From Sorangium aterium (GTDB taxonomy: Bacteria; Myxococcota_A; Polyangia; Polyangiales; Polyangiaceae), in the NCBI RefSeq assembly GCF_028368935.1, contig NZ_JAQNDK010000003.1, forward strand, positions 1,550,001 to 1,614,000: a stretch of 64,000 nucleotides of DNA, given 5' to 3'. Position 1 is the stretch's first letter, and the number at the start of each line of letters is the position of its first letter. Below, piece by piece: positions 29,063 to 44,560 of this stretch. The position numbers and the translations under genes were made by a program. The notes below the pieces were generated by a model that was given only the letters and a program-made list of their open reading frames with translations, did no database searches and had not been told where the DNA came from.

Positions 29063-30307
29063 TCAGCCGTCGAACTGGGAGAACACGAGCGACACGTTGG
29101 TGCCACCGAACCCGAACGAATTCGACATCACATGCTTCAGGCGGCGCTCGCGAGAGGTGAACGGCACGTAGTCGAGGGTGCACTCGGGGTCGGGATCGTC
29201 CAAGTTGAGCGTCGGCGGCACGGCGCCGTGGCGCAGCGCGAGAGCGCAGACCGCCGCTTCGACCCCACCTGCGCCCCCGAGCAGGTGGCCCATCGCGGAT
29301 TTCGTCGAGCTCACCCAGAGGCGCTTCGACGCCGCGTGATCGCCGAACGTCTTGAGGATCGCCCGGGTCTCCTCGATGTCCCCCTGCGGGGTCGAGGTGC
29401 CGTGAGCGTTGATGTAGTCGATCGCGTCCGGCGCGAGCTTGGCGTCGTCGAGCGCCATCTTCATCGCTCGCTGCGCCCCGGCGCCGTCGGGCGCCGGCTT
29501 CGTGATGTGGTACGCGTCGCACGAGGCGCCGTACCCGACGACCTCTGCGTAGATCTTCGCGCCGCGCTTCTTCGCATGGGAGAGCGACTCGAGCAGCAGC
29601 GACCCGGCGCCCTCGGAGCAGACGAAGCCGTCGCGTCCCTTGTCCCAGGGGCGGCTCGCCCGCTGCGGCTCGTCGTTGCGCCTCGAGAGGGCGAACATCG
29701 CGCAGAAGCCGCCGATGCCAAGGCCCGTGATCGTCGCCTCCGCGCCGCCCGTGAGCATGATGTGCGAGCGACCTCGGCGGATCCACTCGAACGCCTCTCC
29801 GAGCGAGTGCGCGCTCGATGAGCACGCGCTCGTGTTGCAGTAACTCGCGCCCCGCAGGTCGAGCGACAGCGCCACCTGCCCCGCGGCGAGGTTGGCGATG
29901 ACCGTCGGGATGAAGTAGGGGCTGACCTTGTGAGGCCCCTTCTCGTGCAGCGTGATCGAGTGCTGGAACAGGTACTCGAGGCCCCCGAGGCCGACACCGA
30001 TGAACGTGCCGCACTGATCGCGGTCCTCGTCGGTGAGCTCGATCCCCGAGTCCTGCATGCACATCTGCGATGCGGCGACGGAGAGCTGGGCGAAGCGGCC
30101 CATCTCCTTCACCTTCTTCTTGGGGATGTACTCCTCAGGCACGAAGCCCTTCACCTCGCCGGCGAAGCGCGTGGGAAACGTGCTCGCGTCGAAGAGGGTG
30201 ATGGGTGCGATACCCGACTGACCAGCCAGCAAAGATTGCCAGGTGGCCTGCGTCCCGAGGCCGTTGGGCGTAGCGAGCCCGATGCCGGTGATGACAACGC
30301 GTTCCAT
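29063..30307 (-). CDS. fabF: 3-oxoacyl-ACP synthase II
   Basis: This 414-residue condensing enzyme elongates fatty acids. The catalytic Cys is in CNTSACSSSAH, and the two histidines are in NAHGTSTPQGD and KSAMGHLLGGAGG. It opens with RVVITGIGLATPNG and ends with SNSFGFGGTNVSLVF, as in the family. It follows acpP by 127 bp in a fabH-fabD-fabG-acpP-fabF order. Confidence 0.96.
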   Translation of the reverse strand: MERVVITGIGLATPNGLGTQATWQSLLAGQSGIAPITLFDASTFPTRFAGEVKGFVPEEYIPKKKVKEMGRFAQLSVAASQMCMQDSGIELTDEDRDQCGTFIGVGLGGLEYLFQHSITLHEKGPHKVSPYFIPTVIANLAAGQVALSLDLRGASYCNTSACSSSAHSLGEAFEWIRRGRSHIMLTGGAEATITGLGIGGFCAMFALSRRNDEPQRASRPWDKGRDGFVCSEGAGSLLLESLSHAKKRGAKIYAEVVGYGASCDAYHITKPAPDGAGAQRAMKMALDDAKLAPDAIDYINAHGTSTPQGDIEETRAILKTFGDHAASKRLWVSSTKSAMGHLLGGAGGVEAAVCALALRHGAVPPTLNLDDPDPECTLDYVPFTSRERRLKHVMSNSFGFGGTNVSLVFSQFDG

Positions 30308-30434
30308 GGCTCTTCTTGCCCTAGCGCCACCACAGAGGTGAGAGCGCGTGCATCGGCGAAGAGCAGACCCTTCGCTGACTCACGCGCCAACCCACCTCCA
30401 TGGTGACGCCGCGTCCGGTAGGGCGGTGGGGACG

Positions 30435-30689
30435 CTACTTCTTGTCCTTGGCATTCCTTTCGATGTAGTCAATCGCATCCTGGACAGTCCGGATCTTCTC
30501 CGTGTCCTCGTCCGGAATGTCGATCTCGAACGCCTCCTCAAACGCGAGGACAAGCTCCACCAGGCCCAGCGAATCGGCGCCCAGATCGTCGATGAAACTC
30601 GCCTCAGGCTTGATGTCCTTCTCGTCGACGTCGAGCTGTTCCTTGATGATCCGCTTTACTTCGGCCGTGATGTCGCGACCTTCAGCCAT
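30435..30689 (-). CDS. acpP: Acyl carrier protein of fatty-acid synthesis
   Basis: This 84-residue carrier has the phosphopantetheine serine in [17 protein letters not shown] and the usual acidic helix II. It starts after a clear ribosome site (ggagga) and lies between fabG and fabF, as in most bacteria. It is distinct from the second carrier at 39403, which has a different serine motif and lies in an unrelated cluster. Confidence 0.97.
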
Positions 30690-30835
30690 GGTATTCCTCC
30701 CGGGAAAACGGAACCCCTAGTAGCCCATCGCCATCAGCGTTGCACCATCGAATTACCTGCGACCGCTTTTTTCGTGTGCGCCTGGTTTGCCGCTGTGCGT
30801 GACGCCTGGCAGACGGGGTCCTCAAGCCAGCGCTC

Positions 30836-31582
30836 TCACACGTACATTCCGCCGTTGACGCGCAGCGTCTCGCCCGTCACGTAGCTCGCCTCGTCGGAGC
30901 ATAGGAATGCGATCGCCGCGGCGACCTCCTCCGCTCGGCCCGTGCGCCCGAGCGGGACCATCTTCGTCAGCCCCTCTTTCATCTCCGGGGTGATCGTCGT
31001 CGTCATGTCGGTGTCGATGAACCCGGGCGCCACGGCGTTGACCGTGATGCCGCGCCCCGCGTACTCGCGGGCGAGCGACTTCGTCACGCCGAGCAGGGCC
31101 GCCTTCGTCGCCGCATAGGCCGCCTGGCCCACGTTGCCCATCTCCGCCACAACGCTGGAGAGGAACACGATGCGGCCCGTGCGCGCGCGCATCATGACCT
31201 TGGTCGCGGCGCGCGCGGACGCGATCGAGCCCTTCACGTTCACGGCGAAGAGGCGATCGAGGTCTTCCTCCTTGATCCGCAGGAGCAGGCCGTCGATCGC
31301 AATCCCCGCATTCGCGACGAGGATGTCAAGCCGGCCAAGGCGCTTCGCCGCCTCGGCGATGGCGGCCTCGGTCGCCTGCAGGTTCGCGACGTCGAAGCCG
31401 AGCGCCTCGGCCTTGCCGCCGCGCGCGGTGATCGCCTCGACGACCGCGCGCGCCTCGGCTTCTCCGCGCACGTAGTTGACGATGACGTGCGCGCCCTGCG
31501 CCGCGAGGGCCTCCGACGCGGCACGCCCGATTCCTCGCGATCCACCCGTGACGATCGCAACTTTGCCCGTAAGGTCGAACAT
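30836..31582 (-). CDS. fabG: 3-oxoacyl-ACP reductase
   Basis: This 248-residue short-chain dehydrogenase reduces 3-ketoacyl-ACP with NADPH. It has the nucleotide motif GGSRGIGRAA, NAGIAIDGLLLR, the catalytic Ser (SSVVAEMGN) and the YAATK Tyr-Lys pair. It ends with TGETLRVNGGMYV, as in FabG. The gene starts 6 bp after the fabD stop. Confidence 0.96.
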   Translation of the reverse strand: MFDLTGKVAIVTGGSRGIGRAASEALAAQGAHVIVNYVRGEAEARAVVEAITARGGKAEALGFDVANLQATEAAIAEAAKRLGRLDILVANAGIAIDGLLLRIKEEDLDRLFAVNVKGSIASARAATKVMMRARTGRIVFLSSVVAEMGNVGQAAYAATKAALLGVTKSLAREYAGRGITVNAVAPGFIDTDMTTTITPEMKEGLTKMVPLGRTGRAEEVAAAIAFLCSDEASYVTGETLRVNGGMYV

Positions 31583-31588
31583 CGATGC

Positions 31589-32530
31589 CTATGCCTCCGA
31601 AAGGAACGCGTTCACGCGCTCAATCCCCGCCATGTCGCTCACGCTGAGCACCTTGATCTGCTTCGTGATCCGCTTCACCAACCCGGCGAGCACCTTGCCA
31701 GGGCCGATCTCGAGGGCGTGCGTCACGCCGTCCTCCGCCATGCGCTCGATCGTCCGCATCCACTGCACGGTTCCATCGATCTGGCGCAGGAGGAGCGACC
31801 GTACCCGCTCCGGATCGGCGTTCGGCGTGGCGTCGACGTTCGCGATCACGGGGAAGGCGAGCGGCATCAGGTGGGTGCGATCGAGCTCGGGGCGCAGGCG
31901 TTCGGCCGCGGGTCGCATCAGCGCGCAGTGGAAGGGGGCGCTCACTTTGAGCGGGATGGCCTTGCCCCCGCGGGCGACGGCGAGCTCGCCCGCCCGCGCG
32001 ACCGCGCCAGCGTGCCCGGCGATCACGATCTGCCCCGGCCCGTTGTAGTTCGCCGGGGCGACCACCTCGCCTTGCGCCGCCTCGGCGCAGATCGCGAGCA
32101 CCACCTCCTGGTCGAGCGCGATGAGCGCCGCCATTGCCCCCTCGCCCGCCGGCACGGCCTCCTGCATGGCGCTGCCCCGGATCCGACAGAGCCGCACCGC
32201 ATCCTCGATCTCGAGCGCGCCGGCGGCGACCAGCGCGCTGTACTCGCCGAGCGAGTGGCCGGCCGCGTACAGCGGCGGATCGAGGTTGGGCAGGTGCTCG
32301 ATGAGGGCCGCGGCCACGGCGCAGCTCGTCGCGACGATGGCGGGCTGGGTGTTGCTCGTCTGCGTCAGCGCCTCCATCGGCCCCTCGAAGCAGAGCCGCG
32401 AGATCGGCTCGCCGAGCGCTGCGTCCGCTCGCGCGAACGCGCCGCGCGCGGCCGCCGAGGCCTCCGCGAGGGCCTTGCCCATCCCCACCTCTTGCGCCCC
32501 TTGCCCTGGAAACAGCCAAGCGATTTTCAC
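31589..32530 (-). CDS. fabD: Malonyl-CoA:ACP transacylase
   Basis: This 313-residue acyltransferase has active-site GHSLGEY (Ser), the upstream FPGQGAQ and the C-terminal His region SAPFHCALM. The GTG at 32530 gives the usual family start VKIAWLFPGQG and has a gaggg ribosome site eight bases before it. An in-frame ATG 18 codons upstream would add a non-conserved extension. Confidence 0.95.
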   Translation of the reverse strand: MKIAWLFPGQGAQEVGMGKALAEASAAARGAFARADAALGEPISRLCFEGPMEALTQTSNTQPAIVATSCAVAAALIEHLPNLDPPLYAAGHSLGEYSALVAAGALEIEDAVRLCRIRGSAMQEAVPAGEGAMAALIALDQEVVLAICAEAAQGEVVAPANYNGPGQIVIAGHAGAVARAGELAVARGGKAIPLKVSAPFHCALMRPAAERLRPELDRTHLMPLAFPVIANVDATPNADPERVRSLLLRQIDGTVQWMRTIERMAEDGVTHALEIGPGKVLAGLVKRITKQIKVLSVSDMAGIERVNAFLSEA

Positions 32531-32691
32531 GTTTGCCCTCAATTCCAAGCCAGGGAGGCGGACGCCGTCCGTCCCCCGAACCACGTCATGCGGCCGGCGC
32601 GCGCGAGACTACCTCAGGCTGGATCGCCCGGCGAGCTCGACCGCCACGCGTAGACCTCGACCCCGACGCAGGCACACGCGCATGGGCCCGT

Positions 32692-33687
32692 TCACATCCG
32701 GATGACGGACGCGCCCCAGGAGATGCCAGCGCCGAGCGCGCAGAACAGGACGTTTTGCCCCGGCTTGATGCGCCCATCGCGGACCGCCTCGTCGAGCGCG
32801 ATGGGGATCGATGCGCTCGACGTGTTGCCGTACTCCTCGATGTTGAGCACGAACCTCTCCAGCGGGAGGTTGAGCCGCGCGGCGACCTGGCTGATGATCC
32901 GCAGGTTCGCCTGATGGGCGACGACCCAGTCCAGGTCCGCAGCCGCCATGCCCGCCGTGTCGAGCGCGATCAGCGACGCGCTCGACAGGTTCTTCACGGC
33001 GACCTTGAAGATGTCCTGCCCCACCATGTGGACCTTGTTGCGGCTCTGCTCGATGCCCTCGGCCGTCAGCGGCTCGGCCGTGCCGCCGCCCGGGATGACC
33101 AGCGAGTTCGCGAGCATGCCGTCGCTGAAGATCCGGGTCGAGATGATGCCCCTGCCGTCGCCCGACGCAGGCCCGAGCACGACCGCGCCCGCGCCGTCGC
33201 CGAACAGGACGCACGTCGTGCGATCCTTCCAGTTCAGGATGCGCGAGAGCAGCTCGACGCCGATCACGAGGACGTGCCGGGCCACGCCGTTCGCGATGAA
33301 CTGATCGGCGATCGTGAGGCCGTAGACGAAGCCGGCGCAGGCCGCCGAGATGTCGAACGCGGGGATCTCCTGAGCGCCGAGCTTCTGCTGCACGTACACG
33401 GCGCAGGAGGGCATCGGGGTGTCGCCGCTGATCGTCCCGACGATGATCATGTCGAGATCGGCCGCCGAGAGCCCGGCGGCGTCCAGAGCAGAGCGGCCAG
33501 CCGCGGCGGCCATGTCGCTCGTGAGCTCTCCCTCGGCAGCGACATGGCGCCGACGGATCCCCGTTCGCTCGCTGATCCAGCTGTCGGAGGTGTCGACGAT
33601 CTTCTCGAGATCGGTGTTGTGAAGGACTCGGGCGGGCGCGTAGCTGCCCGTCCCGAGGATGCGGCTCCTCGGCCGCGTGGAGCTCAT
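32692..33687 (-). CDS. fabH: 3-oxoacyl-ACP synthase III
   Basis: This 331-residue enzyme starts fatty-acid synthesis by condensing acyl-CoA with malonyl-ACP. It has the catalytic Cys in SAACAGF, His in VVAHQANLRI and Asn in YGNTSSAS, and opens with SRILGTGSYAPARVL. It lies 88 bp after rpmF; the plsX gene normally found between rpmF and fabH is missing from this position. Confidence 0.95.
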   Translation of the reverse strand: MSSTRPRSRILGTGSYAPARVLHNTDLEKIVDTSDSWISERTGIRRRHVAAEGELTSDMAAAAGRSALDAAGLSAADLDMIIVGTISGDTPMPSCAVYVQQKLGAQEIPAFDISAACAGFVYGLTIADQFIANGVARHVLVIGVELLSRILNWKDRTTCVLFGDGAGAVVLGPASGDGRGIISTRIFSDGMLANSLVIPGGGTAEPLTAEGIEQSRNKVHMVGQDIFKVAVKNLSSASLIALDTAGMAAADLDWVVAHQANLRIISQVAARLNLPLERFVLNIEEYGNTSSASIPIALDEAVRDGRIKPGQNVLFCALGAGISWGASVIRM

Positions 33688-34818: not shown

Positions 34819-36159
34819 ATGGAGCGCAGCGCCACGCCCGAGGCCAGGCCCCCGCCGCCGGGCGCCGCCGATCGGCGGCCGGAACCTTCAGGGGAAGCAC
34901 GGCGAGCAGGCCGCCGCGCAGCGATTGCGATCGCCCTCTATGCGCTCGTGACGCTCGTGTACGCCGCGAGCTCCTCCCGCGAGATCTTCGGCGTCCACAC
35001 GCCCTACAACCACTACGCGCTGCTCGCTGAGGCGTGGCTCCAGGGCCGCCTCGATCTCGGCGGACCGCCGCCGGCGCACGCGGGCGGCAACGACTTCGCC
35101 GTGTTCGGCGACCGCTACTACGTCAGCTTCCCCCCCTTCCCCGCGGTCCTCATCGCGCCGCTCGTGAAGCTCGCCGGCGGCGCCGAGCGCGTGCGCGACG
35201 GGCAGTTCTTCCTGGCGTTCGCCGGCATCGGGCCGGCTGTCCTCTTCCTCGCGCTGGAGAAGCTCTCGGCCTCGCGCCGCAGCCACCGCACGCAGGCCGA
35301 GAACGTCGCGCTCTCGCTGCTCTTCGCGCTCGGGAGCGTCTACTGGTTCAGCGCGGTGCAAGGGACGGTGTGGTTCGCCGCGCACGTCGTCGGCGTCGCG
35401 CTGGCGTGCGTCTACCTCTACTGCGCGCTCGAAGCCGCCCATCCGCTCGCGGCGGGGCTCGCCCTGGGCCTCGGCTTCGCGACCCGCACGCCGCTCGGAT
35501 TCGCCCTGCCGCTGTTCCTGTTCGAGGCGCTCCGCGTGGACCGCTCGGACCCGCGCGCCCTCTTGCGCCGGCTCGCCCTGTTCGCCGCGCCGGCGGCGCT
35601 CGTGCTCTCGGCGCTGCTCTGGCACAACCACGCGCGCTTCGGCGACGCCGTCGAGTTCGGCCACCGGTACCTCCACATCGCGTGGAGCGCGCGGATCGAG
35701 AAGTGGGGGCTCTTCTCGTACCACTACCTGCCGCGCAACCTCGCGGTGGTGCTCACCGGCCTGCCGTACACGCACGTGCAGGGCGCCCCCTTCCAGATCA
35801 ACGCTCACGGGCTCGCGCTCTGGGTGACCACGCCGATCTATGCGTGGGCCCTCTGGCCCCGGCGCACGCCGCCCCCGTTCTGGGCGCTCGCCGCCACGGT
35901 ATCCGCGGTCGCGCTGCCGAGCCTCCTCTACCAGAACACCGGCTGGCTCCAGTTCGGCTACCGCTTCTCCAACGATTTCGCCCCGTTTCTCTTCGCCATG
36001 ATCGCCGTCTCCGGCCGCCGCTTCGGCGTGCCGTTCTACGCCATCGGGGCGGCCGCGATCGCCGTCAACGGGTTCGGCGCGCTCACGTTCCAGCGCGCGG
36101 GCTTCGAGCGGTTCTACTTCGTCGAGCGCACCCAGCGGGTGCTGCACCAGCCCGACTGA
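34819..36159 (+). CDS. Polytopic membrane protein, possibly a GT-C-type glycosyltransferase
   Basis: This 446-residue protein has a disordered cytosolic N-terminus and roughly ten transmembrane helices (first at about 35-52). A conserved-looking first loop, HTPYNHYALLAEAWL, and a later TRTPLGFALPLFLFEALR resemble GT-C/mannosyltransferase-type or DUF2029-like membrane enzymes, but a definite DXD motif is not obvious. It is divergent from yceD with about 106 bp between starts. Substrate and pathway are unknown. Confidence 0.7.
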   Translation: MERSATPEARPPPPGAADRRPEPSGEARRAGRRAAIAIALYALVTLVYAASSSREIFGVHTPYNHYALLAEAWLQGRLDLGGPPPAHAGGNDFAVFGDRYYVSFPPFPAVLIAPLVKLAGGAERVRDGQFFLAFAGIGPAVLFLALEKLSASRRSHRTQAENVALSLLFALGSVYWFSAVQGTVWFAAHVVGVALACVYLYCALEAAHPLAAGLALGLGFATRTPLGFALPLFLFEALRVDRSDPRALLRRLALFAAPAALVLSALLWHNHARFGDAVEFGHRYLHIAWSARIEKWGLFSYHYLPRNLAVVLTGLPYTHVQGAPFQINAHGLALWVTTPIYAWALWPRRTPPPFWALAATVSAVALPSLLYQNTGWLQFGYRFSNDFAPFLFAMIAVSGRRFGVPFYAIGAAAIAVNGFGALTFQRAGFERFYFVERTQRVLHQPD

Positions 36160-36896: not shown

Positions 36897-37862
36897 ATGA
36901 GGAGGATCTACCCGCACCGACACCTGCTCGGCATCGAGGGTCTCTCGCGAACCGAGATCGTGGCCCTCCTGGACGCCGCCGAGTCGCTCTTCGACGTCTC
37001 CCGGCGGAGCGTGCGCAAGGTGCCCACGCTCCGCGGCAAGACGGTCGTGAACCTCTTCTACGAGCCGTCGACGCGCACGCGGACGTCGTTCGAGCTCGCG
37101 GGCAAGCGGCTCAGCGCCGACGTCATCAACATCAGCGTCTCCACGTCGAGCGCGGTCAAGGGGGAATCGCTGCTCGACACGGTGCAGAACCTCCAGGCGA
37201 TGCAGCCGGACGTGCTGGTCATCCGGCACGCCGCGTCGGGCGCGCCGCACCACGTCGCCGCGCACACGCGCGCCGCGGTCGTCAACGCGGGGGACGGCAC
37301 GCACGAGCACCCGACGCAGGCGCTGCTCGACGCGTTCACGATCCGGCGCGCGAAGGGCCGACTCGAAGGGCTGGAGGTCGCCATCTGCGGCGACATCGTC
37401 CACAGCCGCGTGGCCCGCTCGAACGCGCACCTGCTCACGACGATGGGCGCGCGGGTCCGCTTCGCCGGCCCGCGCACGCTGCTTCCGATCGCGGGGGAGT
37501 CGCTCGGCGCGACCGTCTACGACCGGATCGAGCCCGCCCTCGAGGGGGCCGACGTGGTGATGATGCTGCGCGTGCAGCGCGAGCGGCTGAGCGGCAGCTT
37601 CCTGCCCAGCACGCGCGAGTACAGCCGCACGTTCGGGCTGAACCCGGCCCGGCTCGCGCTCGCCAAGCCGGACGCGATCGTGATGCACCCGGGGCCGATG
37701 AACCGCGGCGTCGAGATCGATCCGCGCGTCGCGGACGGCGCACAGAGCGTGATCCTCGACCAGGTCGAGGCCGGCGTCGCGGTCAGGATGGCCGTGCTCT
37801 GGATCCTGGCCGCGGAGGCCAACGAGTTCTCCGCGACCGGCGAGCCACGGCCAGCGCCCTGA
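36897..37862 (+). CDS. pyrB: Aspartate carbamoyltransferase catalytic chain
   Basis: This 321-residue enzyme makes carbamoyl-aspartate in pyrimidine synthesis. Carbamoyl-phosphate site [13 protein letters not shown] and HPGPMNRG are intact, with the family's [14 protein letters not shown] and [12 protein letters not shown]. No pyrI regulatory subunit and no pyrC follow, so this is the class that works as a stand-alone or dihydroorotase-associated chain. A strong hairpin follows the stop. Confidence 0.95.
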
Positions 37863-37868
37863 CGACCG

Positions 37869-37909
37869 CCCCGGCCGCCCGAGCGGGGCGTGGCGGCGCG
37901 GCCGGGGCA
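37869..37909 (+). terminator. Hairpin after pyrB
   Basis: An 11-bp perfect stem (gccccggccgc/gcggccggggc) with a 19-base loop starts 7 bp after the pyrB stop. It has no T-tract, so it is a moderate terminator candidate separating pyrRB from the NadE-like gene. Confidence 0.4.
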
Positions 37910-38069
37910 GACGGACGCCCTGGCGCGTGGAACCCACGGAACCATGGATGGAAGGCGCGGACCCCGCACGCGGCTCCCCGCGGCATATGCCCGCTCGCAG
38001 CGAACAGGGTTCCCTGTTGCGCCCCGTTTTAATAGGCTGGTCCATCTTTTTGAAAGGGTGGAGCCAACC

Positions 38070-39044
38070 ATGTTTTCGCGAGACGTCCTCAGGATCGATG
38101 CCCCGGCAGTAGCGCAAGAGATCGAGCAGGCCATCCGGGATCAGGTGTTCGGTACGCTGCGGCGGCGCGGGGCCGTGGTCGGGATCTCGGGCGGGATCGA
38201 CAGCTCCGTCGTCTCGACGCTGTGCGTCCGCGCGCTCGGCAAGGACAAGGTGCTGGGCATCTTCATGCCCGAGCGCGACACCTCCGATGACGCGCTCCGC
38301 CTCGGCAAGCTGCTCGCCGAGGGGCTCGGCATCGAGGCGGTCATCGAGAACATCAAGCCCGCGCTGACCGGCCTCCGCTGCTACGAGCGGCAGGACGAGG
38401 CGATCCGGATGGTCTACCCAGACTACAACGAGAGCTGGAAGTTCAAGATCACGCTCCCCTCGATCCTCGAGAGCGACAGGCTGAACGTCTCGCAGCTGAC
38501 GGCGCAGCCGCCCGGCGAGGAGCCGCGCGTGAAGCGGATCCCCCTGAACGCGTACCTGCAGCTCGTCGCCGCGACGAACTTCAAGCAGCGCATCCGCAAG
38601 ATGATGGAGTACTACCACGCGGACAGGCTCAATTACGCCGTCGCCGGCACGCCGAACCTGCTGGAGTACGATCAGGGCTTCTTCGTCAAGCAGGGCGACG
38701 GCGCCGCGGACTTCAAGCCGATCGCGCACCTGTACAAGAGCCAGGTCTACGCGCTCGCCGAGTACATCGGCGTCCCTGCCGATATCCGCAGGCGCGCGCC
38801 GACGACGGACACGTTCTCGATGCCGCAGGGGCAGGACGAGTTCTACTTCGCGCTCCCCTACGACAAGATGGACCTCTGCCTGTACGCCTACAACAACAAC
38901 GTCCCGGCCGCGGACGCGGCTGCCGCCGTCGGCATCACGCCGCAGCAGGTCGAGCGCGTGTTCAAGGACATCGAAGCGAAGCGCCGGGTAGCGCAGTACC
39001 TCCACGCGCAGCCGCTGCTCGTCCGCGATCAGGGCCACGCCTGA
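38070..39044 (+). CDS. NadE-like NAD+ synthetase family protein (ammonia-dependent type)
   Basis: This 324-residue protein belongs to the ATP-pyrophosphatase fold of NAD synthetase, with P-loop GISGGIDSSVVST. It lacks the N-terminal glutaminase domain, so it would use free ammonia or an ammonia donor in trans. It is longer than the usual NadE (about 275) because of an insert (about 125-175) and reads TTDTFSMPQGQDEFYFALPY where standard NadE has its conserved PTADL-type motif. It may thus make NAD or amidate another acid. It has a ggtggag ribosome site and lies upstream of the ACP/acyl-ligase/asparagine-synthase genes. I leave the symbol blank for that reason. Confidence 0.82.
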   Translation: MFSRDVLRIDAPAVAQEIEQAIRDQVFGTLRRRGAVVGISGGIDSSVVSTLCVRALGKDKVLGIFMPERDTSDDALRLGKLLAEGLGIEAVIENIKPALTGLRCYERQDEAIRMVYPDYNESWKFKITLPSILESDRLNVSQLTAQPPGEEPRVKRIPLNAYLQLVAATNFKQRIRKMMEYYHADRLNYAVAGTPNLLEYDQGFFVKQGDGAADFKPIAHLYKSQVYALAEYIGVPADIRRRAPTTDTFSMPQGQDEFYFALPYDKMDLCLYAYNNNVPAADAAAAVGITPQQVERVFKDIEAKRRVAQYLHAQPLLVRDQGHA

Positions 39045-39402
39045 TGATCCGCGCCATCGGACCGCGCACGCCGCTGTCAACGGGATTCTCAGCCTGATAC
39101 GCCGTTCCGCGGGCGTGAAACCCGCCGGAAACAGCGCGAAACCACGCTGACATTCACTCACGTTGACGACCATGACGGACGGGCTCGCAGCGAGATCGTC
39201 AGTCGCCAATCTCACCTAAGCGGCGTGCCCTGGCGGCGGCCTTCGGACGCGGACGGCACGACGCCGCACACGAACGAGCGCGGACGCGAGCGTGAGCGAT
39301 GAACCGCAACCGCGTCCTGCCTCGATCCGCGCGTTGGCCGTCGCTCCGCGGAGTGTTCTCGACAGGAAAGCCGGGGGGGTGATAGACGTCGAGACTACCC
39401 CC
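39045..39402 (+). other. Intergenic region before the carrier-protein gene
   Basis: This 358-bp stretch has no supported gene. Upstream codons in frame with the ACP continue to 39292 but are not ACP-like. A TTGACG at 39170-39175 lacks a matching -10. I cannot identify a promoter or terminator here. Confidence 0.4.
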
Positions 39403-39663
39403 ATGAGCACTTCCAGCATCGAATCGACGATTCGCAACTTCCTGGTGACCTCGTTCGGATACCGGGGCGCTACCGCCGATCTCGGGTCCGAGGTCGCTTT
39501 GCTCGATCAAGGGATCCTGGACTCGACGGCCGTCCTCGAGATCGTTCAGTTCCTCGAGCAGGACCTCGGCATCCAGGTCGCCGACGAGGAGATGGTGCCG
39601 GAGAATTTCGGCTCGATCGCCAGGCTCGTCACCTACGTGAGCGGGAAGAAGAACAGCAACTAG
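39403..39663 (+). CDS. Stand-alone acyl carrier protein
   Basis: This 86-residue carrier has the phosphopantetheine serine in LLDQGILDSTAVLEIVQFLE, which follows the D-S pattern of secondary-metabolism/exopolysaccharide carriers more than the fatty-acid type (see 30435). An acidic helix (LEQDLGIQVADEEM) follows. It sits 18 bp upstream of the acyl-AMP ligase, its probable loading enzyme. The start at 39403 gives a typical compact carrier. Confidence 0.88.
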   Translation: MSTSSIESTIRNFLVTSFGYRGATADLGSEVALLDQGILDSTAVLEIVQFLEQDLGIQVADEEMVPENFGSIARLVTYVSGKKNSN

Positions 39664-39681
39664 CCCGAACCCGGGGGGCGC

Positions 39682-41271
39682 ATGAGCACGCAGCACACCG
39701 CTCGTCGCGATCCGCGCTCGGATCGCTTCCTCATCGACTCCGCGCTGCGATCGTTCGCCGCGTCGCGCCCCGACCACGTCGCGCTGGTCTGCGAGGGACG
39801 GCGGCTCACGTACCGGGAGCTCGACGCGCTCGCCGATCGCTGCGCCGCCCTGTTCCGCGAGGCGGGCGTGCAGCGCGGCGATCGCGTCATGGTCGCGCTC
39901 GACAACGGCGTGGACGCGGTCGTCGCGTACTACGGAGCGCTCCGGGCCGACGGCGTGCCGTCGCTGCTCGGCACCGCGATGCGACCGCGGCGCCTCGGTC
40001 AGGTGATGGAGCTCGCCGCCCCCCGCGTGTTTGTGGCGGCGCGCGGCATGCGCGAGGGCCTCGCCGCGGTGGCCGAGCTCCCGCCCGGCGCGAGGCCGGC
40101 GGCGACGTTCCTGAGCGGCGCGGCTCCCCCGGCCGCGCCCGGGCCCCCGCCCGAGGGGCGCGACTTCCAGGAGGCCCTGGCCGGCGCGCCCGGCGAGCCC
40201 CCTGCGCGCCGCGCGATCGAGCTCGATCTGGCGACGCTCTGCTGGACGAGCGGCAGCACGGGCGAGTCGAAGGGGGTCATGCTGACGCACCAGAACCTCC
40301 GCAACAGCACCGCGGCCATCGGCGCGTACCTCGAGCACACGGCGGACGACGTGATCCTCTGCGTGCTGCCCCTGTCGCACACCTACGGGCTCTTCCAGCT
40401 GCTCGTGACGCACGCGTTCGGCGGGACCGTCGTGCTCGAGAAGGGCTTCTCCATGCCGTGGCCCATCGTCCAGCGGATGGCCGAGGAGCGGGCGACCGGC
40501 TTCGCGGGCGTGCCGACGATCTTCGCGTCGATGCTCTCGCTCAAGAACTTCGCGAAGGCCGATCTCTCGGCGCTCCGGTACATGACGAACGCCGCGTACG
40601 GGCTCCCAGCGCCGCAGCTCCTGCGCCTCCGCGAGCTCCTGCCCAACGTCTCCTTCTTCGCGATGTACGGCCAGACCGAGTGCACCCGCGTCTGCTACCT
40701 GCCGCCCTCGCTGGCGCTCGAGCGGCCGTCCTCCGTGGGCATCGCGATGCCGAACGAGGAGCTCTGGATCGAGCGGGAGGACGGCACGCACGCGGAGCCG
40801 GGCGAGGTGGGCGAGCTCGTCGTGCGCGGGCCGAACGTGATGCGCGGCTACTGGAGGAACCCCGAGGCGACCGCCTGCGCGCTCCGGCCGGGGCCGCTCC
40901 CGGGCGAGGTCGTGCTTCACACCGGCGACCTCTTCAAGATGGACGAGGACCGGTACCTCTACTTCGTCGCGCGCAAGGACGACATCATCAAGACCCGCGG
41001 CGAGAAGGTGAGCCCCCTCGAGGTCGAGTCCGTGATCTGCAAGGTCCCGGGCGTCGTCGAGGCGGCGGTCGTCGGCGTGCCGGATCAGGTGCTCGGGGTC
41101 GCGGTGAAGGCCGCCGTGGTGAAGGCCCCTGACGCCGCTGTGACCGCCGACGACGTCCGCAAGAAGGTGCGGTCCGAGCTCGACGAGGTCGCCGTGCCCA
41201 AGTTCGTCGAGTTCATGGATTCGCTCCCCAAGACGGCGAGCGGCAAAGTCAAGAAGAGCGAGCTCATCTGA
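39682..41271 (+). CDS. Acyl-AMP ligase (ANL superfamily)
   Basis: This 529-residue enzyme activates a carboxylic acid with ATP. Core motifs: P-loop CWTSGSTGESKGVMLTHQN (A3), MYGQTECTR (A5), GDLFKMDEDRYLYFVARKDD (A7/A8) and the catalytic lysine in TASGKVKKSEL (A10). Whether it loads CoA or the adjacent carrier cannot be told, but 18-bp spacing to the ACP favours the carrier. It resembles the acyl-CoA/AMP ligases linked to exopolysaccharide and amide clusters. The next gene starts 1 bp past its stop. Confidence 0.9.
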   Translation: MSTQHTARRDPRSDRFLIDSALRSFAASRPDHVALVCEGRRLTYRELDALADRCAALFREAGVQRGDRVMVALDNGVDAVVAYYGALRADGVPSLLGTAMRPRRLGQVMELAAPRVFVAARGMREGLAAVAELPPGARPAATFLSGAAPPAAPGPPPEGRDFQEALAGAPGEPPARRAIELDLATLCWTSGSTGESKGVMLTHQNLRNSTAAIGAYLEHTADDVILCVLPLSHTYGLFQLLVTHAFGGTVVLEKGFSMPWPIVQRMAEERATGFAGVPTIFASMLSLKNFAKADLSALRYMTNAAYGLPAPQLLRLRELLPNVSFFAMYGQTECTRVCYLPPSLALERPSSVGIAMPNEELWIEREDGTHAEPGEVGELVVRGPNVMRGYWRNPEATACALRPGPLPGEVVLHTGDLFKMDEDRYLYFVARKDDIIKTRGEKVSPLEVESVICKVPGVVEAAVVGVPDQVLGVAVKAAVVKAPDAAVTADDVRKKVRSELDEVAVPKFVEFMDSLPKTASGKVKKSELI

Positions 41272-41272
41272 T

Positions 41273-43285
41273 ATGTGCGGTATCGCCGGCCTCATCAACC
41301 TACGCACCGACGCGCCGAACCCCGACCGCGAGCTGGCCCTCAAGATGGCGCGGGCGCTCCGCCACCGCGGCCCCGACGGCTTCGGCATCTACCGCGATCG
41401 CCACGTCGCGCTGGCCCACTCGCGCCTGTCGATCATCGACCTCGACGGCGGCTGGCAGCCGATGGCCAACGCCGACGAGACGCTCTGGGTCTGCTTCAAC
41501 GGCGAGATCTTCAACTACATCGAGCTCCGCGAGGAGCTCACGGCGAAGGGCCACCACTTCCGGACCAAGAGCGACACCGAGGCGCTGATCCACGCCTACG
41601 CCGAGTACGGCGAGGCCATGGTCGATCGGCTGAACGGCCAGTGGGCGTTCGTCATCTGGGACGTCAAGCAGCGGCGCGCGTTCTTCTCGCGTGACCGCGT
41701 CGGCATCAACCCGCTCTTCTGGACGGTCCACCGCGGCGTCCTCCGGTTCGCCAGCGAGGTGAAGTCGCTTTTCCAGGACCCCACCATCCCCCGCGCGATC
41801 TCGCGTGAGGGCCTCGACGAGGCGCTGACGTTCTGGGCGCCGATCGCCCCGCTCACGCCATACGAGGGCATCCAGCAGATCCCGCCGGGCGCGGTGGCGA
41901 CGCTCGACCTCGATCGCGACGTGGCGCCGCGCGTCTCGGTCCGCTTCCGCCCCGAGTTCCCCGCCGGGCGCGCGCCCGGCGGCGACGAGGCGGGGCTCGT
42001 GTCCAGCGTGCGCGAGGCGGTCCGCGGCGGCTCGACGATCCGCCTGCGCGCCGACGTCCCCGTCGGCAGCTACCTGAGCGGCGGGCTCGACTCCACGATC
42101 GTCGCGGCGCTCATCGCGTCGAACCGCGAGGTGCCGCTGCGCACGTTCTCGGTCGAGTTCGCCGAGCGCGAGTTCGACGAGGCCGAGTACCAGCGCGCCG
42201 CCGTCGCGCACCTCGGCACGTCGCACGCGTCGATCCAGTGCCGCGACGCCGACATCGCCGGCGTCTTCCCGGAGGTCGTCTACCACGCCGAGGCCCCGCT
42301 GCTGCGCACCGCCCCGGCCCCGCTGTTCATCCTGGCGCGCCTCGTCCGGCAGAGCGGCTACCGCGTGGTGCTGACGGGCGAGGGCGCCGACGAGTTCTTC
42401 GCCGGCTACGACATCTTCCGCGAGGACCGGGTGCGCCGCTTCTGGGCGCGCCACCCGGACAGCAAGCTCAGGCCGCAGCTCCTCCTCCGGCTCTACCCCT
42501 ACCTCCAGCGGTCGCCGGTCGCGCAGGTCGAGATGGCCAAGGCCTTCTTCGGGCGGAACCTCGCGCAGACGGACGACCCGTTCTACTCCCACCGCCCGCG
42601 GTGGGACGCCACGAGCCGCATCAAGCTGATGCTCGATCCCGCGATGCGCGAGGGCATCGGCGACACCGCCGCGGCCGATCGCCTGAGGGAGCAGCTGCCG
42701 CGCGACTTCATGCGATGGACGCCGCTCGCGCGCGCGCAGTACCTGGAGATCACGACGCTGCTCTCCGGCTACCTGCTCTCCTCCCAGGGCGAGCGCATGA
42801 TGATGGCGAACTCGGTCGAGGGGCGCTTCCCGTTCCTCGATCCCAACGTGATGGACGTGGCGGACGCGCTGCCGGACGCGCTCAAGCTCCGCACCCTCGA
42901 CGAGAAGCACGTGCTGAAGCGCGCGATGGGCGATCTCCTGCCGCCCGGCGTCCTCGAGCGGAAGAAGCAGCCTTACCGCGCGCCCGTGGTGCAGCCTTTC
43001 TTCGGGAGCGGGACGCCGGACTATGTCGAGGCGTGCCTGTCGCCGGACGCCATCAAGGACGCCGGCATCTGGCAGGCGCAGCCCGTCGCGGCGCTCATCG
43101 CGAAGTGCCGCAAGACCGGCGGCAAGTCGATGAGCAACACCGACGACATGGCGTTCTGCGCCATCCTCTCCACGCAGCTCATGGCGCGCGACATCATCCA
43201 GGGTGCGCGCGTCGTCTCGGCCGCCGACGACACGTCCGGCCGGCTGGGCGTCGATGTCGATCGGGTGCGCGACGCCGCGGGCTGA
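41273..43285 (+). CDS. asnB: Asparagine synthase (glutamine-hydrolysing)-type amidotransferase
   Basis: This 670-residue protein has an N-terminal nucleophile glutaminase domain (Cys2 in MCGIAGL, with RHRGPDG and NGEIFNYIELR) and a C-terminal synthetase domain with the ATP motif YLSGGLDSTIVAALIA. It thus takes ammonia from glutamine and amidates a carboxylate. It lies in an operon with an acyl ligase and ACP, so the substrate may be a carrier-bound or secondary-metabolite acid instead of aspartate. The start is fixed by Cys2 and by abutting the ligase stop. The length matches AsnB of the eubacterial class. Confidence 0.9.
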   Translation: MCGIAGLINLRTDAPNPDRELALKMARALRHRGPDGFGIYRDRHVALAHSRLSIIDLDGGWQPMANADETLWVCFNGEIFNYIELREELTAKGHHFRTKSDTEALIHAYAEYGEAMVDRLNGQWAFVIWDVKQRRAFFSRDRVGINPLFWTVHRGVLRFASEVKSLFQDPTIPRAISREGLDEALTFWAPIAPLTPYEGIQQIPPGAVATLDLDRDVAPRVSVRFRPEFPAGRAPGGDEAGLVSSVREAVRGGSTIRLRADVPVGSYLSGGLDSTIVAALIASNREVPLRTFSVEFAEREFDEAEYQRAAVAHLGTSHASIQCRDADIAGVFPEVVYHAEAPLLRTAPAPLFILARLVRQSGYRVVLTGEGADEFFAGYDIFREDRVRRFWARHPDSKLRPQLLLRLYPYLQRSPVAQVEMAKAFFGRNLAQTDDPFYSHRPRWDATSRIKLMLDPAMREGIGDTAAADRLREQLPRDFMRWTPLARAQYLEITTLLSGYLLSSQGERMMMANSVEGRFPFLDPNVMDVADALPDALKLRTLDEKHVLKRAMGDLLPPGVLERKKQPYRAPVVQPFFGSGTPDYVEACLSPDAIKDAGIWQAQPVAALIAKCRKTGGKSMSNTDDMAFCAILSTQLMARDIIQGARVVSAADDTSGRLGVDVDRVRDAAG

Positions 43286-43354
43286 GCGGGCGCGCTCGGC
43301 CCCGCGCTGAGCCGGTGCGCGGCGCCGCGGGGCGCATGGGAGCCGCCCCTCAGC

Positions 43355-44560
43355 TCAGCGGGCCCGCTTGCGTATCGTGCCGCTGCTCTCGTCCGCCCAG
43401 AAGACGAACCCGCCGGCGAGCGCGATACCGCGCGGCGTGCCGCCCTCGTACAGCGGCCGCGTCCTGCCGGTGCCGTCCTTGCGCTTCCGCATCACGCGGG
43501 GCGACCCCTGGTCGGTCCAGTAGACGAACTCATCGGACCCATCCACGGCGATGCAGTCGGGGGACGCATGCGCCACGTCATCATCCTCGATGGCCGTCCA
43601 GACGGCCGCCGCGTTCTCCGAGCCGTCCTTCGGCGCCCTCATCACGGCAGACAGCTCGCCGGCGTGATCCCCGCGCGGGCTGTTGGTCCAGTAGACGTGG
43701 TCGTCGTCCACGGCGATCGCGTACGGAAACGGCTGCTCCCTGGCCAGTCGCTGCGTGTCGCCGGTCGCCCGCTGCGTCCGGTTCACCGAGCCGCGCAGGC
43801 TCCGATCGACCCAGTACACGTGCTCTCGGTCGATCGCGATGAGGTGCGGCGACACGTTGTTGTCCTCGTGGAACTCGTCGTCCACCTCCGCGTCGGGCAT
43901 CGTGATCTTGCCGATGAGGCTCCCCTCGCCCGGCGTGCCGATGCCGGCCGCGCGCTGCGCCCAGAACACCGCGTCCTCGTCCGCGGCCACGCCGAGGGTC
44001 GCGAAGTCCGAGTCGAAGAGCACCTCTGGCGTGCGTGCTCCGTTGCGGTCCACCGTCAAGACGTCCTTGTCGTTGAGGTTGGACCAGAAGACGCCGTGCT
44101 GGTTGACGGCGATCCCGTACGGAGCGTTCTGGCCGACGGCGAGCGTCGTGACGGCTCCGCCGAGGACCGACACTTTTTGCACGCTGCCATCCGTGCCTTC
44201 GCCCGCCGTCCAGTAGACCTCGCCCTGGTAGACGGTGAGCAGGTTCGCGTTCGGCGCCTCGATGGTCGGAAACCCGCGCGCGATCTCCGTGACCCCGCTG
44301 CAGCCGGTCGCGCTGCACCTCCCGCCGTCCAGGCACACCGCGCCGCAAGCGCCGCAGTTCTGCGGGTCGTCGAGCAGGTTCACCTCGCAGTCGTCGGGGT
44401 TGCCGTCGCAGTCCGCCGTGCCGGCCGCGCACCCATCGCCTCCACCGGTCGAGGTCGCGCTGGCTTCGCTCACCGTGAAGTCCCCGAGCACGCTGGTGCA
44501 TGCCGCGGCGGCCATGATGGCAACGCAGAGAATCGAGCCGATTCCGAACGCCTGGCGCAT
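43355..44560 (-). CDS. Lipoprotein with predicted beta-propeller
   Basis: This 401-residue protein has a signal ending in the lipobox-like AAAC (Cys about 20), then a Cys-rich region (GTADCDGNPDDCEVNLLDDP, GACGAVCLDGGRC) of the myxobacterial MYXO-CTERM-like surface type, and a body with repeated VYWTNS / VYWVDR / VYWTDQ blades. These are typical of DUF5050/LDL-receptor-YWTD-like propellers in myxobacteria. The function is unknown and likely surface binding. It overlaps the PEGA-like gene stop by one base (TGATG), so the two are co-translated. A ribosome site ggggag fits. Confidence 0.8.
   Translation of the reverse strand: MRQAFGIGSILCVAIMAAAACTSVLGDFTVSEASATSTGGGDGCAAGTADCDGNPDDCEVNLLDDPQNCGACGAVCLDGGRCSATGCSGVTEIARGFPTIEAPNANLLTVYQGEVYWTAGEGTDGSVQKVSVLGGAVTTLAVGQNAPYGIAVNQHGVFWSNLNDKDVLTVDRNGARTPEVLFDSDFATLGVAADEDAVFWAQRAAGIGTPGEGSLIGKITMPDAEVDDEFHEDNNVSPHLIAIDREHVYWVDRSLRGSVNRTQRATGDTQRLAREQPFPYAIAVDDDHVYWTNSPRGDHAGELSAVMRAPKDGSENAAAVWTAIEDDDVAHASPDCIAVDGSDEFVYWTDQGSPRVMRKRKDGTGRTRPLYEGGTPRGIALAGGFVFWADESSGTIRKRAR

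Follow-up and report, generated by a model that had tools for sequence, protein, structure and literature searches.

A recurrent four-gene module with a NadE-like protein, a carrier protein, a VinN-like ligase and an AsnB-like amidotransferase in Sorangium aterium: a candidate system for amidation on a carrier

Four consecutive plus-strand genes of Sorangium aterium are the subject of this report. They lie in a stretch of 64,000 nucleotides (here, the window; positions 1,550,001 to 1,614,000 of contig NZ_JAQNDK010000003.1, assembly GCF_028368935.1) of a 13.5 Mb genome, and all coordinates given below without a locus number are positions in this window. The first gene (38070-39044) encodes a NadE-like amide synthetase of the ATP-pyrophosphatase type with 324 amino acids (aa), which belongs to the NF002048/PRK00876 subfamily of NCBIfam. 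It is followed by a stand-alone carrier protein (39403-39663, 86 aa; the phosphopantetheine serine is residue 41, at 39523-39525), a VinN-like adenylating ligase (39682-41271, 529 aa; AMP-binding profile, 279.1 bits) and an AsnB-like glutamine-dependent amidotransferase (41273-43285, 670 aa) with Cys2 and the ATP motif S269-G-G-L-D-S274. Gene calls, profile scans and codon-position guanine-cytosine (GC) content, which was 0.82-0.97 at the third position across the four frames, confirmed the genes where the original prediction had placed them. The gaps between them are 358, 18 and 1 base pairs (bp) in gene order, and the last three genes are indeed tightly coupled.

The set recurs outside Sorangium. 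We collected 119 loci (L055-L093, L095-L174), all picked by their NadE-like gene of the NF002048 subfamily, from a set of genomes and from the best 80 of at least 559 confirmed candidates in named genomes. One further locus, L094, lay outside the family at 27% identity and was left out, and the removal of same-contig duplicates (L095, L104, L105, L109, L122, L131, L138, L151 and L153) gave 110 loci; gene-family clustering and the counts for the clustered families F5 and F10 were based on 109, also without L093. Searches with the window proteins (tblastn) found the ligase near the NadE-like gene in 95 of the 110 loci, the carrier in 91, AsnB in 82 and all three partners in 72. All four genes stand on one strand within 8 kb in 61 of the 110, with a median span of 4.9 kb and in nine gene orders, the commonest being NadE-AsnB-ligase-carrier (28 loci) and AsnB-carrier-ligase-NadE (18). 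Among loci with at least 6.5 kb on each side, 51 of 73 were complete, and eight of the 22 incomplete ones had one or two other partners missing. No match to NadE, carrier or AsnB occurred in 20 control windows (18 kb each, taken from 13 genomes carrying the NadE-like gene); two of them had a ligase match, each at 26% identity. Chance grouping is very unlikely because the set recurs in relatives, and it is all but certain that the four genes constitute a single conserved module. The linkage in relatives on which the original prediction depended was thus found, as conserved membership but not as conserved order.

The set is present at least in myxobacteria, rhizobia, Azospirillum, Nitrosomonadales, Acidobacteria, Planctomycetes and Ignavibacteria. 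Outside Sorangium the genes of the module can be translationally coupled, with overlaps of 4 bp between ligase and NadE in Sinorhizobium meliloti and Shinella and between NadE and a GNAT gene in Azospirillum.

The association also holds at the level of whole genomes. Of 144 genomes of the order, 34 have an NF002048 protein over the cut-off, as have 17 of 188 genomes in a phylum sample (the two samples overlap). The AsnB subfamily, defined by E <= 1e-150, likewise occurred in 34 of the 144 genomes, and 32 had both (Fisher p 2.8e-27). The pairing is more than a by-product of linkage, because in several genomes (e.g. G138, G032, G005 and G048) the AsnB gene is on a different contig from the NadE-like gene. 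Together, recurrent linkage and co-occurrence support the functional coupling that had been proposed for the four genes. The two genomes with a NadE-like gene and no AsnB subfamily member are G070, which is 64% complete, and G069, in which the ligase is split over two contig ends. AsnB subfamily genes were also seen without a NadE-like gene over cut-off at G058:C723:3947-5935 (1002.3 bits) and at G135:C1:4181952-4183850; the latter, with a much lower score (662.8 bits), may be another branch. In L066 and L069, from the related genomes G069 and G032, the NadE-like gene has no adjoining ligase, carrier or AsnB and stands beside a protein of the hybrid histidine kinase-cyclase type (tested in L066).

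The NadE-like protein scored 524.6 bits against NF002048 (cut-off 313), 171.6 bits against Pfam NAD_synthase and 156.3 bits against TIGR00552 nadE (cut-off 63.65). Among the matches listed, its closest named relatives are from Sorangium, at 95-96% identity. It has the SGGxDS ATP motif and the fold of NAD synthetase; S40, G41, G42, D44 and S45 are invariant in 35 of 35 family sequences, and the AlphaFold model (predicted local distance difference test score, 92.8) found its best fold match in NadE 2e18, with a template modelling score of 0.85 by target length and 0.68 by query length at 27% identity. Alignment of the 35 family sequences with 12 canonical-type NadE sequences showed 29 positions at which both groups are at least 90% conserved, including the ATP motif, and 18 that reach this level within each group yet differ between them; L001 was too divergent for this comparison and was left out, and L077 was dropped from the alignment for stop codons within its coordinates. 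A family-specific segment at residues ~103-164 (38376-38561, plus strand) is 62 aa long compared with 14 in the canonical-type L043, i.e. ~48 longer, and its family-conserved residues align to gaps. The canonical substrate-loop residues GNKSE and PSAEL/PTADL are missing; TPNxLE and PTTDT take their place and are conserved at 90% or more in the family. The deviation from standard NadE that had been claimed for this protein is therefore borne out by the differing positions and the longer segment. Judged from alignment and model, it keeps the fold and the ATP chemistry while other conserved parts are altered. It shares the fold and ATP-pyrophosphatase motif with the ammonia-dependent NAD synthetase (NadE, PF02540), and differs from it in the longer 103-164 segment, the PTTDT loop and the regular company of ligase, carrier and AsnB.

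A further gene of the NAD synthetase type was found in at least 38 of 41 genomes carrying the subfamily, Sorangium included; the carriers without a listed second gene (G044, G121 and G008) are 86-88% complete. In Sorangium this gene is L001 (658 aa), which scores 85.9 bits against TIGR00552, over the cut-off of 63.65, and stays under the cut-offs of the two full-length NAD synthase models it matches. The NadE-like protein is thus not the only NAD synthetase-type protein of the cell, and the absence of a second nadE, which the original prediction had named as the outcome that would speak against it, was not observed. Because another such gene is present in nearly all carriers and the family sequences differ as described, a role as the housekeeping NAD synthetase appears very unlikely, in keeping with the suggestion that the protein serves something besides NAD synthesis. 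It could still be an ordinary second NAD synthetase that adjoins the other three genes by accident, being over the TIGR00552 cut-off and retaining the ATP motif and many of the core residues of NadE; linkage in nine gene orders, co-occurrence with AsnB, the second NAD synthetase in the carriers and a patchy distribution make this highly improbable. It is the context and not the sequence that renders NAD synthesis by this protein unlikely.

The window ligase is the sole match at E <= 1e-120 in the Sorangium genome (150 candidates scored). At full length its best solved match is a multi-domain gramicidin synthetase; for the substrate segment the closest solved structure is VinN, with 101.3 bits for the window ligase and 114.9 bits for a typical relative. 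The acyl-AMP ligase of the original prediction is thus an adenylating ligase as proposed, but of the VinN-like dicarboxylate type and not a fatty acyl-AMP ligase. According to one review, D230 of VinN binds the beta-amino group of (methyl)aspartate, F231 contributes importantly to binding, and a shortened loop, with K330 and R331 as its key residues, gives room to the C1-C2 bond (PMC11253843). We located these residues by alignment, assuming an offset of 16 between the chain and the published numbering; D230, F231, S299, K330 and R331 correspond to T234, Y235, A304, T335 and R336 of the window ligase. Across 95 family ligases (L071 was dropped for stop codons within its coordinates), the R331 equivalent and an aromatic residue at F231 are present in all 95, the Asp230 equivalent in 46, and the full combination D-Y-T-K-R in 43. 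The R331 equivalent occurs in none of 28 other AMP ligases of the same loci, namely those below 400 bits among 29 further ones, many of them copies from related genomes. This pattern suggests that the constant part of the substrate would be the second carboxylate and the variable part the amine. The window ligase, with T, Y, T and R in place of the VinN-type D230, bulky F231, K330 and R331, lacks the amine-binding Asp, and is therefore predicted to load a dicarboxylate without the VinN-type amine, perhaps succinate.

The carrier gene, 18 bp upstream of the ligase, provides the stand-alone partner expected of a VinN-type enzyme. The protein scored 19.9 bits against Pfam PP-binding, just short of the cut-off of 20.8; D40-S41-T42 is invariant in 28 of 28 aligned sequences, and the family profile best matched small stand-alone peptidyl carrier proteins (2my5, PigG and PltL). 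The vicenistatin starter unit system VinN/VinL/VinO is alike in having a stand-alone ligase with a similar substrate segment, in the transfer of an aspartate-type dicarboxylate to a stand-alone carrier and in leaving one carboxylate for the next enzyme (PMC11284099, PMC11253843). There, VinO decarboxylates the carrier-loaded (methyl)aspartate (PMC11284099), whereas in the Sorangium module no decarboxylase was found, the NadE-like and AsnB-like proteins are present, and the ligase lacks the amine-binding Asp.

The AsnB-like protein, with its Cys2 and ATP motif, scored 480.3 bits against TIGR01536 (cut-off 267.1), and C2, S269, G270, G271, D273 and S274 are invariant in 21 of 21 aligned sequences. 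It is not the sole asparagine synthetase candidate, since four genes of the Sorangium genome are over the TIGR01536 cut-off. N-acetylglutaminylglutamine amidotransferase (TIGR03104) is an AsnB-like enzyme that amidates a small molecule; the window protein scores 321.3 bits against it, under the cut-off of 570.1, and that pathway is not known to use a carrier.

The ligase, amidotransferase and decarboxylase of the exosortase-A (XrtA/PEP-CTERM) system (TIGR03098, TIGR03108 and TIGR03099) belong to the same protein superfamilies, and the module could be the exopolysaccharide ligase-carrier-amidotransferase set of that system under another name. The best named matches include TIGR03098 for the ligase (378.6 bits) and TIGR03108 for AsnB (391.7 bits), and an exosortase gene stands next to the module in Manganitrophus (L125). 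Both scores are far below the respective cut-offs of 592.35 and 816.9 bits, the module has a NadE-like gene in place of the decarboxylase, and a profile grown from the L125 exosortase matched only 2 of 109 loci. The XrtA decarboxylase model found nothing over its cut-off in 10 genomes carrying the NadE-like gene, and no match within 200 kb on the contig of the module. Identity with the XrtA set is accordingly the least credible of the explanations considered here. In genome G140 the Asp-type ligase occurs a second time, in a sugar cluster that also encodes a UDP-sugar dehydrogenase and three glycosyltransferases; ~9 kb away on the same strand are genes for a PLP decarboxylase and a carrier.

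A fifth gene (F5), for a methyltransferase of the PrmC/HemK type, accompanies the set in 26 of 109 loci. In most cases outside Mesorhizobium it stands between the ligase and carrier genes; in Mesorhizobium it comes just after the carrier on the other strand. The one member tested, from L061, scored 148.7 bits against TIGR00536 (cut-off 115.5) and 170.6 against the PrmC model TIGR03534, under its cut-off of 199.1. The NPPY motif is present in 25 of the 26, the last being a fragment. All 26 loci with the methyltransferase have an Asp-type ligase, compared with 20 of 69 without it; minus 16 Mesorhizobium-type loci the figures are 11 of 11 and 19 of 68. By analogy, the methylation of glutamine amides by named HemK-family members fits a carboxamide product. 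In S. meliloti a similar NPPY methyltransferase lies ~11.5 kb from the module, beside a gene of the F10 family and a polysaccharide transporter gene.

The clearest indications of an acceptor come from polysaccharide clusters. In Azospirillum ramasamyi, genes for glycosyltransferases, an O-antigen ligase and a polysaccharide deacetylase precede an ACP-ligase-AsnB-NadE-GNAT run, and in Shinella an F10-AsnB-ACP-ligase-NadE run lies near a flippase and glycosyltransferases. F10, present in 15 of 109 loci, matches no Pfam or NCBIfam model and is predicted to have a double-GNAT/N-myristoyltransferase-like fold. These arrangements suggest the N-acylation of a sugar in Azospirillum and Shinella. The same surroundings, together with those in Manganitrophus (L125) and one acidobacterial locus (L155), would also suit a scheme in which ligase and carrier make an acyl donor and the amide synthetases act separately on the acceptor, for instance a uronic acid or amino sugar within a surface polysaccharide; sugar clusters are known to include AsnB-like enzymes. 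A polysaccharide context as a general rule was rejected for Myxococcota, where glycosyltransferase counts resembled those of controls. The test used random picks of 110 from 170 neighbour frames (22 case loci) and of 110 from 210 frames (20 control windows), and among the 25 families listed the counts for cases and controls were 3 and 2 for Glyco_transf_4, 2 and 2 for Glycos_transf_1, and 2 and 3 for Glyco_trans_1_4. Separate amidation of the acceptor is made quite improbable by this lack of enrichment and by the scanned neighbours in the window, namely pyrR, pyrB, a membrane protein without matches, a Vgb_lyase-like protein, a kinase, a TPR protein and a fatty acid cluster.

Taken together, the best reading, to which we would give about an even chance, is that the module loads an aspartate-like dicarboxylate and amidates its free carboxylate on the carrier. 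The VinN-like ligase would activate a small aspartate-like dicarboxylic acid by adenylating one of its carboxylates and pass the acyl group to the pantetheine arm of the carrier, the other carboxylate staying free. This free carboxylate, which a PLP decarboxylase removes in VinN/VinO-type systems, would be converted to a carboxamide by the ATP-dependent AsnB-like and NadE-like proteins; the former would draw ammonia from glutamine, and the latter would adenylate the carboxylate and accept ammonia, possibly that released by AsnB. In some lineages the PrmC/HemK-type methyltransferase could then N-methylate the amide. Finally, an acyltransferase, in some alphaproteobacteria one with a GNAT or double-GNAT fold, would move the group to an acceptor, probably a polysaccharide amine in the clearest clusters. 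In Sorangium, a succinate-like dicarboxylate would give a succinamyl-type carrier thioester. A carrier-tethered amide, one of the products first proposed, is now the best-supported product class.

The same genes could also act in another order, the AsnB-like protein, the NadE-like protein or both amidating the free acid to an asparagine- or glutamine-like compound that the ligase then loads. Relatives of AsnB and NadE usually act on free small molecules. The VinN-type Arg in 95 of 95 ligases is, in our view, easier to reconcile with a free carboxylate than with an amide, and VinO, the decarboxylase analogue, works on the carrier-bound acid (PMC11284099); amidation before loading is unlikely on these grounds.

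Several observations weigh against amidation on the carrier followed by transfer to a sugar. Two amide synthetases exceed the need of one amidation, and the core motifs of NadE are intact in a protein whose sequence is compatible with NAD synthesis. Of the 22 incomplete long loci, 11 hold NadE, ligase and carrier without an adjoining AsnB (eight of the Rhizobium type, e.g. L145), and in L069, L166 and L172 the NadE-like gene has none of the three partners. The loci are not mutually independent, the NadE-like gene being the selector and several coming from Mesorhizobium and Rhizobium. A grip of R331 on the distal carboxylate is our own extension of a review passage that names K330 and R331 only as key loop residues. 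The NPPY motif is found in N6-adenine methyltransferases as well. Pfam identifies no sugar-transfer genes around the module in the window, the neighbour frames in Myxococcota have no excess of glycosyltransferases over control frames, and a search of seven genomes of the order, Sorangium included, run without a positive control, did not detect F10.

A bolder version of carrier-based amidation, which we hold only tentatively, sees an NAD-synthetase fold repurposed as a carrier-dependent amide synthetase that works in near-obligate tandem with AsnB on a dicarboxylate half-thioester, with two nitrogen insertions on the carrier, for example an amide followed by a second amidation or by amidine formation. 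With similar reserve, the module may represent a widespread, undescribed pathway of loading, amidation, optional N-methylation and transfer, S. meliloti included. Full-text searches, whose coverage excludes most subscription journals, found no description of this gene set. Annotated records name the first gene 'NAD(+) synthase', a label that would hide a widely distributed pathway, and the module is more interesting than its annotation suggests. If the proposal is right, bacteria could build carrier-bound short acyl groups that bear an amide and sometimes an N-methyl group, and pSymB of S. meliloti, a model organism, would allow the function of these four genes, now mis- or under-annotated, to be tested. 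On that replicon the full run AsnB-ACP-ligase-NadE is found ~2.5 kb upstream of minCDE (L175 10169-14975; L197 16170-20975), and the NadE-like gene occurs in 76 Sinorhizobium plasmid records.

Some loci have further genes beside the module. A frame of ~900 aa lies directly upstream of the NadE-like gene in 15 loci, nearly all Mesorhizobium; in L134 (7236-9989) it encodes an adenylation-thioesterase protein, and a second copy lies ~6 kb further up in L113, L130 and L134. Eight Rhizobium-type loci (L145, L154, L158, L159, L163, L164, L167 and L174) have no AsnB beside the module, and the amine position of their ligases is occupied by Gly; next come a DUF900 hydrolase and another AMP ligase (tested in L145) and, in most, phosphoglucose isomerase (tested in L167). 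The clustering families F3, F9, F13 and F16, largely on the strand opposite conserved genes, were taken as shadow frames and dropped.

In the window itself, a promoter scan of 37700-43700 found no sigma-70-type promoter, although such scans say little here. Upstream of the module and on the same strand are pyrR and pyrB, both over their NCBIfam cut-offs, and a membrane-protein-like frame (34819-36159) without a Pfam or NCBIfam match, whose linkage to the module was seen only in Sorangium and L058. These genes were rejected as parts of the system, as the linkage occurs in 3 of 80 named loci, all Sorangium, and in the related locus L058 both pyr genes are on the opposite strand. Downstream, the called genes lie on the opposite strand: one matches Vgb_lyase weakly, one matches nothing, and others encode a protein kinase and a TPR protein. 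On the minus strand at 29063-33450, within a few kb of the module, Pfam identifies a fatty acid synthesis cluster with a ketoacyl synthase, an ordinary acyl carrier protein (30435-30689), a short-chain reductase, an acyl transferase and a ketoacyl synthase III.

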